Shown here: positions 14,827 through 25,615 of the stretch, in pieces
Layout of the letters: each line of letters starts with the position of its first letter
Position numbering within the stretch: the stretch's first letter is position 1
Virus record (IMG/VR): IMGVR_UViG_3300037558_002050
Span: 1-27,891 of that record
Direction: 5' to 3' (one strand)
Length of the DNA stretch: 27,891 nt
From: a virus
Notes under the pieces: generated by a model
Seen by the model: the letters and a program-made list of their open reading frames with translations, nothing else
What the model was told of the DNA's origin: nothing
The model's database searches: none
Translations under genes and position numbers: made by a program

Positions 14827-15405
14827 TCAATCGTCATTTGACTTTAGTTCGTCAGTCAATTTGGCATAAGCTTTATCTTTGGCATGTTGAGCAGCACGCA
14901 TTAGATTTGTGCTTGTTAAGAGGTTTTGTGATCGTTGCTTTTGAGCTGCTTTAAGGTAACCAATAAAAGATCCATAGCTCATTTGCATGATATCTTCATG
15001 ATGATGACCAGCCTCAATTAAGTATTGGAAAGTTTCAAACCAACTCGTTTGATCCAGCTCTTTGACTTTTCTTGAGCGTTTTCGCCCTGATTCTTTCTCC
15101 GCAAAATAAGCGTCATTCACTTTGATAACTGCTTCAATCAAAGATAAGAATGTTGATTCTGAAGCCTCAGCCATCAAAATCAGCTCACTTTCAGTTTTCA
15201 GTGTGGATTTACCCAACAAAGTCATTACTTCAACTGTATGCGCTTTTAATAGTGATTTATAAATTTCATCTGAGTGAGTTTTTAGAAAAGATTTAATTAC
15301 TGAAGCATATGGTCCCCATTCATCAATGTTATGCATTTTCAATTGATGAATGGGGACGTCGCCAATTACTACGCTTCGATTATTCGCTAAAAAAAATTCA
15401 TTCAT
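14827..15405 (-). CDS. Tail assembly chaperone
   Basis: A 192-residue soluble helical protein between the tail tube gene and the tape measure, the standard position of the chaperone that holds the tape measure during tail building. The C-terminal half has YLIEAGHHHEDIMQMSYGSF and GYLKAAQKQRSQNL, resembling the second domain of siphovirus tail chaperones. Many such genes have a programmed frameshift into a second frame, but none is visible here because a moron cassette follows directly. The start at 15405 has GAGAT upstream. Codons 17-32 contain a perfect 16-bp inverted repeat, which is unusual inside coding DNA and might slow ribosomes or be cut by RNase III. The next genes downstream have their own promoter candidate. 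Confidence 0.75.
   Translation of the reverse strand: MNEFFLANNRSVVIGDVPIHQLKMHNIDEWGPYASVIKSFLKTHSDEIYKSLLKAHTVEVMTLLGKSTLKTESELILMAEASESTFLSLIEAVIKVNDAYFAEKESGRKRSRKVKELDQTSWFETFQYLIEAGHHHEDIMQMSYGSFIGYLKAAQKQRSQNLLTSTNLMRAAQHAKDKAYAKLTDELKSNDD
15312..15357. repeat. Perfect 16-bp inverted repeat inside the chaperone gene
   Basis: GTCCCCATTCATCAAT (15312-15327) is the exact reverse complement of ATTGATGAATGGGGAC (15342-15357), with a 14-nt spacer. It encodes VPIHQ on one arm and IDEWG on the other. It begins 48 nt after the start codon. There is no T-tract, so it is not a terminator. Confidence 0.9.
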
Positions 15406-20665: not shown

Positions 20666-20836
20666 TCATGGTTTCTTTGGTGGTCGCGATAGAACGCAGC
20701 ACATAGCACGAACAAGATTATTCACTCTCGATGGACTACCAATCACAACTACTTTTTTCTCGCAGCTACATGGCGAATAACCATTACCATTTCTTCCATT
20801 CAATCCACGTCGACACGATTCACATTTTTCAGTCAT
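20666..20836 (-). CDS. 56-aa Cys-rich small protein, possible zinc-binding
   Basis: A short gene: MTEKCESCRRG at the start, then CSC, and a basic end RPPKKP. Cys5, Cys8, Cys23 and Cys25 (C-x2-C ... C-x-C) could bind one zinc; two more Cys follow at 46 and 47. The ATG shares one base with the stop of the gpF-like gene (TAATG), with GGTGA upstream, so coupling is likely. Small Cys proteins in Mu-type phages include Com, a translational regulator of the mom gene; resemblance is only in size and Cys pairs, and no mom-like gene is seen. Function not recognised. Confidence 0.65.
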   Translation of the reverse strand: MTEKCESCRRGLNGRNGNGYSPCSCEKKVVVIGSPSRVNNLVRAMCCVLSRPPKKP

Positions 20837-22041
20837 TAATTCACCAATGCTTTAAGTGTGTAAATCATCTTGCCATTCAGCGCTTCAATCGAAACCACTT
20901 CAAATGACAAACCCATTGGCATTAATACGCCATGACCAGCATTCAATTCGTTTAGATCAATGCCTAAGCCTTTCGCATTCTCAATCTGCAACACCACATC
21001 GGAAGCATTTTCAGCTAACAGTAATGGCGAATTAAATTGAATCGTTTGCCCAACTTCATAAGCGACTACATGCTGCAAGGTCACACCACCTGTCACGATT
21101 GCAGCTGAATTACTCGCCACGGCGTTTAAGGCTTGCATGTCCTGTGTGAGCCAATGTTTTAAAACATCGTCCGCTTTCGAGCTCACAGACGCATTTAGGT
21201 AGTTCGTGATTGCTGCATCAGTACCCTGTACATAATCCAAGAATGTCTTGATTGCACTTGGTCTAATGGATGGATCTAAAGGAATAACCGTATTGGCCAC
21301 TGTGTTAAATAAATCTCTCGATCTATCATTCATCGGGGCTAAAAGACTGGTGAGCTTTTTAGAAGCAGTCCATTCGGCTTTAATTGCCTCTTTCTGATCC
21401 AGTAGATATTCCTTATCCAGTAATGACTTAGAAATCTTCTGATCCACCAATGCCTCAAACTCTCCAAATTGCAAAGGATGTGAACTCCAGTCCAAAGCTT
21501 CGGCAACCTGAGGCAACTTATCATCAGGTGTAATGCCATATTTAAGCGCCTGCTTCTCCGTAAGCGCGATGACAGTACAACGACAACGAAAACCCAATGG
21601 AGGGTAATGCGTTAGCCAAAATGGGTGATCTATCGGTAATACAATTCGATTCAATGCCAAATGCGCAGGACGCACACGTGAGTCATTGATAGCCGAATAC
21701 ATCAGATACTGACGTTTGTCTTTATTCCGTTGCTGTTGCTGCCAACGTCCATGGCCATATGCACTTTGGATATTGGTACGGAATACATTTTCTAGGTAAT
21801 GCTTTGGTAAAACGATCTCAGACTCAGCTACAAGCTTCTGAAAATCGTTAAAGGTGCCACCCGATGCTAATGTTTTATTTAGAGACTTAATCACCGACTC
21901 AGCTTGCTCAAGACTCGACAAGAAGCTAACCGTAGTCGCCATCTGCCGTGTCTTAAGGTCCATTGAGTAAAACTCATCAGGCAGCACCACTTTCTTACTA
22001 TGCGCATACTGGAGCGCTTCAAGAAACGTGACTGGTTGCAT
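20836..22041 (-). CDS. Minor head protein, Mu gpF / SPP1 gp7-like, with a possible degenerate ART-like end
   Basis: A head morphogenesis protein of about 401 residues, usually bound near the portal. The family core is clear: NIQSAYGHGRWQQQQ near 90, SAINDSRVRPAHLALNRIVL near 116-135, and PFWLTHYPPLGFRCRCTVIA with the Phe-Arg-Cys-Arg-Cys motif near 155. The C-terminal 120 residues (VAYEVGQTIQF, VVLQIENAKGLGIDL, LMPMGLSFEVVSIEAL) follow the order of strands of ADP-ribosyltransferase domains that are often fused to this family, but the usual Arg and Glu-x-Glu are missing. The start at 22041 has GGAG nearby; an earlier ATG at 22053 lies against the T-tract of the preceding terminator and has no ribosome site. 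Confidence 0.85.
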   Translation of the reverse strand: MQPVTFLEALQYAHSKKVVLPDEFYSMDLKTRQMATTVSFLSSLEQAESVIKSLNKTLASGGTFNDFQKLVAESEIVLPKHYLENVFRTNIQSAYGHGRWQQQQRNKDKRQYLMYSAINDSRVRPAHLALNRIVLPIDHPFWLTHYPPLGFRCRCTVIALTEKQALKYGITPDDKLPQVAEALDWSSHPLQFGEFEALVDQKISKSLLDKEYLLDQKEAIKAEWTASKKLTSLLAPMNDRSRDLFNTVANTVIPLDPSIRPSAIKTFLDYVQGTDAAITNYLNASVSSKADDVLKHWLTQDMQALNAVASNSAAIVTGGVTLQHVVAYEVGQTIQFNSPLLLAENASDVVLQIENAKGLGIDLNELNAGHGVLMPMGLSFEVVSIEALNGKMIYTLKALVN

Positions 22042-22053
22042 AGCTCCATCCAT

Positions 22054-22077
22054 AAAAAAAGCAGCCTAATGGCTGCT
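22054..22077 (-). terminator. Terminator after the membrane moron
   Basis: On the minus strand AGCAGCC-ATTA-GGCTGCT (seven perfect pairs) is followed by TTTTTTT. It starts 11 bases after the moron's stop codon at 22089 and ends just before the gpF-like gene. Confidence 0.88.
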
Positions 22078-22088
22078 AGATTTTTTTA

Positions 22089-22670
22089 TTACTTTACCAA
22101 CCTCTTCAAGTCAGTCAGGTTTAAAAACAAATAAAATATAAATAGAAACATGAAGAATATCGGTGAAATTAGAATTAAATAAGCAATCCCCATAACACTC
22201 TTACTTATGTAAAAGTTCACTACCATGTAATTAATAAACCAATTTCCCAAGGACATTAGTACTAGAAAAACGAATGCAAAGAAAATCATTGAAGAGATCG
22301 CCATAGCAACTTCTTTGCAGTAGGTTTTTAAATTTAAATCTAATTTTGTAATTCTTCCATTTTCGTCAGTCGTTTTTATAAGTACTTGATCCCAAAATCC
22401 GACTATAGATGCAATGATTTCGAAGTTGATAAAATCAGGATGTCTAAAATAATAATCCACCAACTCTTGAGAAGCTAAACCATTTCCAGTTAATTTCTGT
22501 GCTGCAGAATTCTTCCGTGCTCGCTTTTCTTCCAGAGTCATCTCTGTTGATGCGTCAATTTCAGAAATTTCATTAAAGTAATTATTTCTTCTTTTTGCAC
22601 GATCATCTGACTTAGCAAATTTATCTTTTCGGCTTATATAAAGTTCAGTCAACTTTGTAAAATCAATCAT
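22089..22670 (-). CDS. Membrane protein of unknown function inserted in the head module (moron)
   Basis: A 193-residue protein. About 115 soluble, charged residues (with TEMTLEEKRARKNSAAQKL and VDYYFRHPDFINFEII) are followed by two membrane segments: AISSMIFFAFVFLVLMSLG and AYLILISPIFFMFLFIFYLF, with a basic end. The gene interrupts the conserved portal-gpF order, has visibly more A+T than its neighbours, ends in its own terminator and has a candidate promoter. These are the marks of a moron, an added gene expressed in the lysogen. The start at 22670 (GGGGTGG upstream) was preferred to the ATG at 22682, which lacks a ribosome site. The start codon and ribosome site lie in the 3' arm of a 12-bp hairpin. 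The family was not recognised; entry exclusion or defence is possible but unproven. Confidence 0.75.
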   Translation of the reverse strand: MIDFTKLTELYISRKDKFAKSDDRAKRRNNYFNEISEIDASTEMTLEEKRARKNSAAQKLTGNGLASQELVDYYFRHPDFINFEIIASIVGFWDQVLIKTTDENGRITKLDLNLKTYCKEVAMAISSMIFFAFVFLVLMSLGNWFINYMVVNFYISKSVMGIAYLILISPIFFMFLFIFYLFLNLTDLKRLVK

Positions 22671-22709
22671 TACCACCCCCATTTTTTCATTTTAAAAGTG
22701 GTAATGATT
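22665..22709 (-). promoter_or_regulatory. 12-bp hairpin that covers the moron start codon
   Basis: On the minus strand AATCATTACCAC (22709-22698) and GTGGTAATGATT (22676-22665) are exact inverted copies with a 21-nt spacer. The second arm contains the end of the ribosome site and the ATG at 22670-22668. In RNA that comes from upstream the start would be paired. As DNA, the arm centres are 33 bp apart, close to three helical turns, so a protein binding site is an alternative. Confidence 0.75.
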
Positions 22710-22737
22710 TTATATGCTTACAAGTTAAATGTAACTT
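22700..22737 (-). promoter_or_regulatory. Candidate moron promoter with a 16-bp palindrome at -35
   Basis: On the minus strand GTTACA (22735-22730, 4/6 to -35) and TAAAAT (22712-22707, 5/6 to -10) are 17 bases apart. The expected start is near 22700, inside the 5' arm of the start-codon hairpin. The perfect dyad AAGTTA-N4-TAACTT (22722-22737) lies on the -35 box and fits an operator. Confidence 0.45.
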
Positions 22738-22739
22738 AT

Positions 22740-24197
22740 CTATTCCCCCCTACCGGCCGTCACATACCCCAAAACATCCCCAGCATATAAAGCCTGATCT
22801 AAATTCGCTTTGAACTGTGCCTTGGAAGCCATTGGGATGAGTTGCATTAAATTGCTTGCTAGATCTTGTGGATCCGTCGAATCAGCCACCAGTTGCTTAA
22901 TCTGATCTTGATTCAATAGTTCAAAATCATCTTGGGCATCTGTCAGTTCATCCAACTCTTGCTGCTCGGGTGACGGCTTTTGCACTGATGCCTTAAAGCT
23001 GAATGCTTGATGAGGTAATGCTGAGAATTGGGTACTTGGAACCACTTGTTCAACAGGCTTTAAATCACCGTCTTGCAAGTTGTACTCGCGAATAAAGTAT
23101 GACTCCGAAAGGTTTGCACCAGCACTCTTTAAGTGCGTATCCCGTTCAGCCTGTTCTTTATTCAATGGTTTCGTTTTTTCACCGAGAAGCACTTTATGTG
23201 GCTTCCAGTCATTCAACACGCATAACGCATCCACGACGGCTTGAAGTGTTGGAGTAACCAATCGAATGTCTGACTTAAGCTTGTCGCCACGGACATTCTC
23301 ATGGACTTGACCAAGTGCATAGCTTCCCTTGCCATCCGTACCACTGGTAAGAGTCTGCCCCAATACAACCTTCTGAATCTGTTGCGCTAAAGTCTTGTTG
23401 AAAGTCTCAAACGCGCCATTAGCTGAACCAGAGCCTTGAGTTGATAGAACTTGAACATCATCCTCAATATCAATTGAAAGTACACTTTGCGCATGAGCAT
23501 TGAGTAATGCTTGGCTCATATCATCGGTTTCAGTGTCTTTACACTTACCCAGTAGGATCGGAGTACCAAAACGCTCCAAGAACTTTGCCCAGAATTTAAA
23601 TCCATTCTGTTTAAAGAAAAACAACCAATACAGTGTCGCCAATAATGCCTTGCCATAAGGTTGTTCAAATGTTGCCTTGCGACGAGTGAGGAAGAACTTT
23701 AGAAATTGATCAACTTCCCGATCTACGCCGCCACCGTCTTGACGATAGATCAATCGACCATCATTTTTAGGTTCAAACCACTGCATCGGCTTTTCACCAA
23801 TCCACTGCAACCCAAGATATCCATCTTGCTTTACTTCATATACAGCCTCTTGCACTGAATAGCCGAAAAACAAAGCATTTAAGGCACCTGATGCAATTTC
23901 GAAGTACCATTCATCAAGCTCAGCTTTTAGATGTACTGCCTCTGGTGTATCACTAGGCTCAATGCGGAACGGCGTTGCCAGTAATGCATCGATACGCGTC
24001 TCTACAGCCTGAGCAATCTCATCATCATCCAGTAATACAGATAAGCGATGACGAGTAATACCCGCTTTACGCAATACCTCGTCATTGTCAGGACGTCTTC
24101 CAAAGTGCGTGAAAAAGTTAGAAATCGCTTCTTGAGTGTATAGACCACCTTTGGACAAAGCCTTCTTTGACGCTTTGTCCTTTTTAGACTTTGCCAT
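22740..24197 (-). CDS. Portal protein, DUF935 / Mu gp29 family
   Basis: A 485-residue portal subunit: twelve copies form the ring through which DNA enters and leaves the head. The family features seen are HFGRRPDNDEVLRKAGITRH near residue 30, DDDEIAQAVETRIDALLATP, an AVYEVKQDGYLGLQWIGEKP stretch, and LYWLFFFKQNGFKFWAKFLE followed by RFGTPILLGK, a well-kept DUF935 motif. YALGQVHENVRGDKLKSDIR comes later. A polar C-terminal tail holds EQQELDELTDAQDDFELL. Nine bases separate it from the large terminase stop, with AGGAAA as ribosome site. Confidence 0.92.
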   Translation of the reverse strand: MAKSKKDKASKKALSKGGLYTQEAISNFFTHFGRRPDNDEVLRKAGITRHRLSVLLDDDEIAQAVETRIDALLATPFRIEPSDTPEAVHLKAELDEWYFEIASGALNALFFGYSVQEAVYEVKQDGYLGLQWIGEKPMQWFEPKNDGRLIYRQDGGGVDREVDQFLKFFLTRRKATFEQPYGKALLATLYWLFFFKQNGFKFWAKFLERFGTPILLGKCKDTETDDMSQALLNAHAQSVLSIDIEDDVQVLSTQGSGSANGAFETFNKTLAQQIQKVVLGQTLTSGTDGKGSYALGQVHENVRGDKLKSDIRLVTPTLQAVVDALCVLNDWKPHKVLLGEKTKPLNKEQAERDTHLKSAGANLSESYFIREYNLQDGDLKPVEQVVPSTQFSALPHQAFSFKASVQKPSPEQQELDELTDAQDDFELLNQDQIKQLVADSTDPQDLASNLMQLIPMASKAQFKANLDQALYAGDVLGYVTAGRGE

Positions 24198-24205
24198 GTG
24201 TTTTC

Positions 24206-25615
24206 CTATTGATATGTCCGACTTCCAGCACCGGCTGGTTTTTTGCCTATTCGTGCTTCATTTAGCTCCGTGAAGCCATCACTACATCCATCCACTTGGT
24301 CGTCATGCGTACCATTTGGAAAGTTGCGTAGTTCCTCAATGAGTGCTTTGTTCCAATCACCACGGAGCATCTTTACATTGCCGATGTTGACCTGAGCTGC
24401 GAATGGTTGTGCCCGAGTAATCTTGTCACCTGATACCGTCTCAGCTTTAACATTGAAACCTGAAAGCATCGTGATGAAGTTTTTAGCTTGAGATTTACCC
24501 GCTTGACCGGGATCTTGAGGTAATCGAATCGAAACAGATTTGCCATCCATTTGAGCTGTTTGCTTAATCGTATTTTCTACCCCATCAGGTCCCCAGCGCC
24601 CGCGAACCATATCGACGATATAAATCATATTTTCTTTGGTCTTCAGCATTCTTGGGCCTGCAGTCCAGTCACCTTCATTTTCAGAAGCTGCTAAGTCCCA
24701 AGCACGAACTTCTTTGATGAATTCCGCAGGTAACGCATCCACAATTTCAATTCTGTCAGGCTTAAAAAAACCACCTGCAGGTGGTGATGGTAATTGTCGG
24801 TACTGACCAGAGAAGACATACGGCGCTGCATCCTCCATGACTCTTAATCGCTCAATACTATGCTTTTCAGGCCAGAGAGCTGAGCCATCAGGCTGAATTG
24901 CAGGTAAACACAAATGTTCCCAATGTTCGCCATTCCCGCCATCTAACAACCAACCTGCAAGGTCTTGCTCATGCAAGCGCTGCATAATGACGATAATGGG
25001 CGTATCAGGTGAGTTTGTTCGAGATTCCAAAGTGTTTTGAAACCATTCAATCACATTGCCACGGATCGTGTCTGAACTCGCTTCACTGGCTTTATGCGGG
25101 TCATCAATAATAATGGCTCCACCAAACTCTTTTCGGATCTTACCTGCACCAAAACCAGTGATGGTACCGCCCGTACCTTGTGCGTAACAAACACCTCCAG
25201 CGACCGTTCGCCAATCATCTTTAGCTTTACTGTCATCCCTTAACTTAAATTCAGGAAATACTCGCTTAAAGGCAGTTTCTTGAACTAGGTTGCGCGTCTG
25301 GAATGCGTTATTAGCCGCTAAGGTTGCTGAGTAGCTGATATGAATAAACTCACAATCAGGAACTTTACCAAAGCACCAAGCCATGAAGTTGATTACTGCC
25401 AGCTCCGTTTTGGAGTATCGAGGCGGAACGTTAATGATTAAACGCTTAGTCTCTCCACGGAAAACTCGCATCAAAGCATCACAAACCACTCGATGGTGCC
25501 AGTTGTGCATCCACTTGTACTTACGACGTTCTTTGAACATGTATCGAGAAAAGAAATACAAGTCCTCTTGAGCCTCAATACGTATTGCAAGTTCACGTGC
25601 TGGATCAGTAATCAT
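24206..25615 (-). CDS. terL: Large terminase subunit
   Basis: The DNA-packaging motor and headful or cos nuclease, 469 residues. The ATPase part has a Walker A-like loop VPPRYSKTE at 63-71, a Walker B strand GAIIIDDP with Asp171-Asp172 and a following motif at IVIMQRLHEQDLAG (207-220). The nuclease part begins with Asp307 in RAWDLAAS and has a second acid cluster HDDQVDGCSDG with Asp438, Asp439 and Asp442. All active-site positions are present, so the enzyme looks intact. It overlaps the small terminase gene by 11 bases. The codons for PPAGGFF (279-285) form a terminator-like hairpin, listed separately. Confidence 0.95.
   Translation of the reverse strand: MITDPARELAIRIEAQEDLYFFSRYMFKERRKYKWMHNWHHRVVCDALMRVFRGETKRLIINVPPRYSKTELAVINFMAWCFGKVPDCEFIHISYSATLAANNAFQTRNLVQETAFKRVFPEFKLRDDSKAKDDWRTVAGGVCYAQGTGGTITGFGAGKIRKEFGGAIIIDDPHKASEASSDTIRGNVIEWFQNTLESRTNSPDTPIIVIMQRLHEQDLAGWLLDGGNGEHWEHLCLPAIQPDGSALWPEKHSIERLRVMEDAAPYVFSGQYRQLPSPPAGGFFKPDRIEIVDALPAEFIKEVRAWDLAASENEGDWTAGPRMLKTKENMIYIVDMVRGRWGPDGVENTIKQTAQMDGKSVSIRLPQDPGQAGKSQAKNFITMLSGFNVKAETVSGDKITRAQPFAAQVNIGNVKMLRGDWNKALIEELRNFPNGTHDDQVDGCSDGFTELNEARIGKKPAGAGSRTYQ
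24764..24785 (-). terminator. Terminator-like palindrome inside the large terminase gene
   Basis: The perfect 16-bp palindrome ACCACCTGCAGGTGGT (24770-24785) is followed on the minus strand by TTTTTTT (24770-24764). It has all parts of an intrinsic terminator but lies between the ATPase and nuclease parts of terL, within codons for PPAGGFF. Whether it acts is unknown. Confidence 0.5.

Follow-up and report, generated by a model that had tools for sequence, protein, structure and literature searches.

A moron gene with a putative translational insulator in the Mu-type head operon of a temperate phage

The head operon of the Acinetobacter prophage analysed here contains an inserted moron gene, which is quite probably equipped with a translational insulator: its start codon would be masked in the long late RNA and accessible for translation in RNA from a local promoter. 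This interpretation was put forward in a sequence-only reading of the same DNA and is supported by sequence comparison and folding predictions. The anatomy of the cassette, its insertion between two late genes, the conservation of both hairpin arms and the -10 element, and in most copies also of the -35 element and the terminator, one compensatory base change, and a contrast in the computed accessibility of the start codon can be read directly from the sequences. The window, the whole stretch of 27,891 nucleotides that was analysed, is part of IMG/VR virus record IMGVR_UViG_3300037558_002050 (positions 1 to 27,891).

The moron cassette and its place in the head operon

The head operon is encoded on the minus strand in the order terminase large subunit (24206-25615), Mu-type portal protein (22740..24197, PF06074), moron, Mu F-like head protein (20836..22041, PF04233), head maturation protease, and major capsid protein E. 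The start of the F gene was placed by homology at the ATG at 22041, whereas the ORF tool gave 22053, which falls in the T-run of a terminator. The moron gene (22089..22670, minus strand) starts with the ATG at 22670 and encodes 193 amino acids. This start is backed by homology, whereas the longer ORF beginning with the ATG at 22682, selected by the ORF tool, is not conserved. In the moron protein, the N-terminal half is helical, and two membrane helices are predicted. Searches of Pfam, PHROGs, PADLOC, and NCBIfam gave no noteworthy match to it, its AlphaFold2 model of modest confidence (pLDDT 71) has no fold match, and no homologues were found in the annotated phage and plasmid records searched. 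Acinetobacter genomes contain homologues of 30-50% identity outside the portal/F slot (L045-L051), which together with the moron appear to form a family of small membrane proteins.

The moron is followed by an intrinsic terminator, AGCAGCCATTAGGCTGCT-TTTTTTT (22053..22077, minus strand), which has equivalents in every slot homologue with the hairpin described below. Strong intrinsic terminators occur on the minus strand inside the head and tail operon at 26132-26114, 22077-22060, and 15451-15436. Since several strong terminators lie within the late operon, late transcription is probably antiterminated. Antitermination would carry late transcription through the moron, so that read-through would be the normal late state. 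The operon layout likewise suggests that late transcription crosses the portal/moron junction in the window phage.

Of 50 related junctions in Acinetobacter prophages, about 40 show the portal stop directly adjoining the F start, for example as AAGTAGATGCAACC in L055, and the remaining ten junctions contain small, tightly packed ORFs that are promoterless. Small ORFs of this kind, with neither promoter nor hairpin, occupy the slot in L064, L079, L081, L088-L090, L092, L093, L095, and L103. The portal/F slot thus appears from these comparisons to be an insertion hot spot in Acinetobacter prophages. The gap between the two genes in the window is about 700 bp long and consists of a promoter, a hairpin, the gene, and a terminator. 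The adjacency of portal and F in most of the related junctions identifies the moron cassette as inserted into an operon that is read through. It shares with lambdoid and Mu-like morons the position of an extra gene between genes that are adjacent in relatives, and a promoter and terminator of its own, which are here conserved predicted elements.

The cassette has moved relative to its surroundings. Near-identical morons in L004 and L006 lie beside portals that are about 55% and 76% identical to that of the window, which indicates that the cassette recombines relative to its neighbour. The moron of L120, the full form of L024, is a recombinant in which the leader and the first codons are of the L004 type and the remaining protein is nearer to the window type (69%). 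Therefore, leader and body are exchangeable.

The hairpin and the promoter in the moron leader

The leader contains a perfect 12-bp inverted repeat, as the sequence-only reading had described. The 5' arm AATCATTACCAC (22698..22709, minus strand) and the 3' arm GTGGTAATGATT (22665..22676, minus strand) are exact reverse complements (12/12) separated by a 21-nt loop. The start codon (22670-22668) is located within the 3' arm, and the Shine-Dalgarno sequence GGGGGTG (22674..22680, minus strand), recognised from sequence and folding, is partly covered, so that the earlier placement of the ATG and part of the ribosome site in the stem was correct. U-G pairs (UUUU/GGGG) can lengthen the stem across the remainder of the Shine-Dalgarno sequence (22680-22674), which is predicted to be paired in the long RNA. 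Four U residues opposite GGGG, as in a FourU-type thermometer, are present in the window only, and most homologues have fewer U residues; a thermometer of this type was therefore set aside.

Such a repeat is rare. The window contains two perfect repeats whose arms measure at least 11 bp and whose loops do not exceed 60 nt, the masking hairpin being one of them, and about 0.1 perfect repeats of at least 12 bp with loops of at most 60 are expected per shuffled window of the same composition. Shuffling of the local 120 nt produced a repeat of at least 12 bp in 3 of 2000 trials. Elsewhere in the window, a perfect 16-bp inverted repeat with a loop of 14 (15312-15357) lies inside the coding start of the minus-strand gene 14827-15405 (phrog_14432). 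Its pairing is broken in homologues L122 and L123 and absent in L124, and it looks like a product of chance or of a recent change.

A candidate sigma-70-type promoter is located where it had been proposed, with the -35 element GTTACA (22730..22735, minus strand) and the -10 element TAAAAT (22707..22712, minus strand) separated by 17 bp. The last three bases of the -10 element are the first three bases of the 5' arm. Transcription would start 7-8 nt past the -10 element, at 22699..22700 on the minus strand, and the short RNA would retain two to three bases of the 5' arm, in agreement with the earlier estimate of about three. The match to consensus is not significant by itself, as the window contains 20 sigma-70-like matches and 29.9 are expected in shuffled sequences, and the -35 element agrees with the consensus at only four of six positions (three of six in most homologues). 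The significance of the promoter derives from its conservation in homologues instead. The TARAAT -10 element is present in all 19 copies of the cassette in the portal/F slot, and in each of the 18 copies with the hairpin it marks the edge of the 5' arm. GTTAC-N18-TARAAT, which corresponds to hexamers with the exact 17-bp spacer, is present in 15 of the 19, including L034, although the spacer has diverged; L116-L119 keep the -10 element and have lost GTTAC.

Accessibility of the start was calculated as the predicted energy necessary to open positions -15 to +6 around the AUG. In the slot copies with the hairpin, opening requires 13.2-18.2 kcal/mol in the long RNA, in contrast to 1.9-7.7 kcal/mol in RNA that starts at least 8 nt after the -10 element. 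In the window, the opening energy decreases from 17.2 kcal/mol with the 5' end at 22709 to 2.8 kcal/mol with the 5' end at 22699. The value for the window remains stable when as much as 400 nt of sequence upstream is included, and none of 300 leader shuffles reached it. Most other gene starts in the window require 3-11 kcal/mol; the start of F is an exception at 15.4, which results from taking 22053 inside the terminator. The difference between long and short RNA predicted by folding is that expected in the sequence-only reading. Relief is partial in the lineages of L004, L008, and L116, whose short RNAs still cost 6-8 kcal/mol.

The partial relief bears on the possibility that the start is hidden in all RNAs alike until a factor acting in trans, such as a Com-like protein, a small RNA, or temperature, opens the hairpin; the local promoter would then be of minor importance or inactive. 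The short RNAs of L004 and L116 keep residual pairing of a U-run with the Shine-Dalgarno sequence, and the opening of a masked start by a trans-acting factor has a precedent in mom and Com of phage Mu. IsrK of a prophage provides an RNA precedent (PMC4825925). We nevertheless consider this explanation unlikely, because most lineages retain both the 17-bp spacer and the location of the -10 element on the border of the 5' arm, in the window lineage the short RNA is predicted to be open already at 2-3 kcal/mol, and the loop varies in sequence and length, unlike a binding site.

Conservation of the mask among homologues

Homologues were collected by protein searches and with a gapped DNA pattern, and relatives were reached via an Acinetobacter genome. 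The same portal/F slot is occupied by the moron in 18 further records, 17 IMG/VR contigs and one contig of an Acinetobacter genome (L039), so that there are 19 slot copies and 18 masked copies with the window counted in both. The moron proteins of the slot copies range in identity from 100% down to 49%. Four leader lineages are represented among the 18 of the 19 copies that keep both arms. The 5' arm lies outside coding sequence, and its nine columns after the -10 element differ at a rate of 0.07 per sequence pair among nine distinct leaders; the corresponding rates are 0.43 for the spacer between the promoter hexamers and 0.54 for the DNA that precedes the -35 element (permutation p = 2e-5). 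The terminator follows the moron in every masked copy, that is, in 18 of the 19.

Among ten distinct leaders, 98.6% of the cells of a 14-pair stem are standard pairs. The L116 group contains the one compensatory double change found, from C-G to U-A. Four one-sided changes preserve pairing: C-G to U-G in L032 and, separately, in L116, A-U to G-U in L003, and U-G to U-A in L116. Defects of the stem are an internal mismatch in L005 and L006 and the loss of the end pair in L007. In L116-L119, the Shine-Dalgarno sequence has moved (from GGGGUGG to GAGGU) and is still paired by the opposite strand, within a stem of about 18 pairs. The loop is about 6 to 28 nt long over the masked copies, 19-28 nt in those bearing GTTAC and about 6 nt in the L116 group, where it shortened as the stem grew. 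The shuffle control for covariation is weak, as 95 of 500 shuffles do as well, because variation is scarce. Counted without L116, the alignment showed no double change, and the wider homologue search then found that of L116. The case for pairing rests on the conserved noncoding arm and on the coordinated change in L116-L119. Pairing in homologues had been named beforehand as a property on which the proposal could fail, and it is preserved in the slot copies that carry the arms, with one compensatory and several wobble-preserving changes.

The copy at L034:2930-3700 has the promoter and lacks the hairpin and the terminator, and its spacer and arms are unrelated to those of the other copies. L034 lacks at once the 5' arm, the part of the 3' arm that precedes the ATG, and the terminator. 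Since the promoter exists without the arm in L034, conservation of the arm in the other copies is not a by-product of promoter function. The placement of L034 in a protein tree is compatible both with loss of the mask and with a mask that was never gained. Folding shows no mask in L034, nor at the probable start codons of L045-L051, the more distant homologues at other chromosomal sites.

The inverted repeat might also function in DNA, as an operator at which a repressor, perhaps the moron itself or a phage regulator, occupies both half-sites around the transcription start. The arms flank the predicted start site, and the window lineage has an AAGTTA-N4-TAACTT dyad over the -35 element. Operator half-sites require a fixed spacing, whereas homologues differ by as much as about 20 bp in the distance between the arms, which breaks the helical phase, and the range of loop lengths fits RNA pairing better. 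The L116 group alters both strands while keeping the RNA pairing, including that of its shifted Shine-Dalgarno sequence, and the moron has no match to a DNA-binding family. The dyad AAGTTA/TAACTT is kept in part of the family only and is not conserved in L013 and L039; we set it aside as a functional element. An operator is, in our estimation, quite improbable.

We give very little credence to the explanation that the main role of the hairpin is to block re-initiation or the traffic of ribosomes coming from the portal stop, or to affect transcription or RNA stability, and that the moron is masked only incidentally. The hairpin begins 30 nt past the portal stop, and other ORFs in the slot are tightly coupled to the portal gene, as such a block might lead one to expect. 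The pairing is, however, centred on the Shine-Dalgarno sequence and AUG and tracks the Shine-Dalgarno sequence when that is moved. The minus strand does not contain a U-tract after the stem, which would be necessary for termination, and the hairpin was for this reason rejected as a terminator.

Proposed mechanism and relation to known masked genes

Based on the conserved leader and the predicted structures, a mechanism of masking by the hairpin in the late RNA can be proposed, in which we infer the start site, the repression, the use of the gene in the lysogenic state, and the advantage that the phage gains. The RNA of the late operon would carry both arms, and the 12-bp hairpin would bury the Shine-Dalgarno sequence and AUG, resulting in poor translation of the moron. 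Ribosomes translating the portal gene should not melt the hairpin, because they stop 30 nt before the 5' arm. Transcription from the local promoter would start close to where the 5' arm ends, and the short RNA without the arm would be translated and then terminated. The local promoter alone would thus determine the output of the moron, independently of late transcription. Polymerases passing during late transcription may also occlude the local promoter.

The comparison with lysozyme gene e of phage T4 made in the sequence-only reading is accurate. In T4 e, the long RNA contains a hairpin over the Shine-Dalgarno sequence and AUG, and a late promoter within the region encoding the 5' strand produces a short, well translated RNA; the long RNA yields about 100-fold less lysozyme, and soc, 49, and I-TevI have the same layout (PMC3014915). 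The layout is shared by I-TevII, I-TevIII, segB, and mobE of Aeh1, inserted non-essential genes that are masked in host-operon transcripts and freed by their own embedded promoters (PMC2988022). The moron leader resembles T4 e in the predicted hairpin over the Shine-Dalgarno sequence and AUG of the long RNA, present in the 18 masked slot copies, and both e and I-TevI in a promoter whose placement would leave the 5' arm out of its RNA, as judged from its conserved position and the computed accessibility. The likeness is one of working and not of descent, since the promoter in the window is sigma-70-like, the head genes are Mu-type, and the leaders have no sequence relation. T4 masks a late gene in early RNA and uses a T4-type late promoter, whereas a sigma-70-like promoter would serve the moron and the late RNA would be silenced. 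The leaders of the homing endonucleases (I-TevI, I-TevII, I-TevIII, segB, and mobE) are the closest parallel in biology. They differ in that they belong to endonucleases of lytic T-even phages, which are expressed from promoters of the middle or late class, whereas the window encodes a small membrane protein in the head operon of a temperate phage, with a terminator of its own.

Protection against external promoters by RNA structure reportedly occurs also in IS10/Tn10, for which Davis, Simons and Kleckner are said to have described in 1985 that transcripts entering from outside fold into a structure in which the transposase start is sequestered, unlike RNA started at the promoter of the element itself. 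The moron cassette differs from this element in having neither terminal repeats nor a transposase. Ordinary descriptions of morons do not include a start-codon mask, and none was found for a moron in the openly licensed literature that we searched. What differs from the known masks is the direction, as an accessory gene of a temperate phage would be shielded from late RNA.

The chances are about even, in our judgement, that the cassette represents a transferable insulator, which keeps a membrane gene of the prophage state inside a late operon from being made during virion production, by the logic of T4 e and I-TevI with the timing reversed, and which is carried between phages with differing portals. 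The usual account of accessory genes in late operons, "own promoter plus terminator", leaves expression by read-through unblocked. The conserved mask would supply the missing half, so that the protein would be neither overexpressed at lysis nor disturb head assembly. The arrangement also provides a search rule: a gene inserted in a late operon and preceded by a stem that masks its start codon, with the -10 element of a promoter inside the 5' arm of that stem. Such a search may lead to prophage genes whose product is worth hiding in lytic growth.
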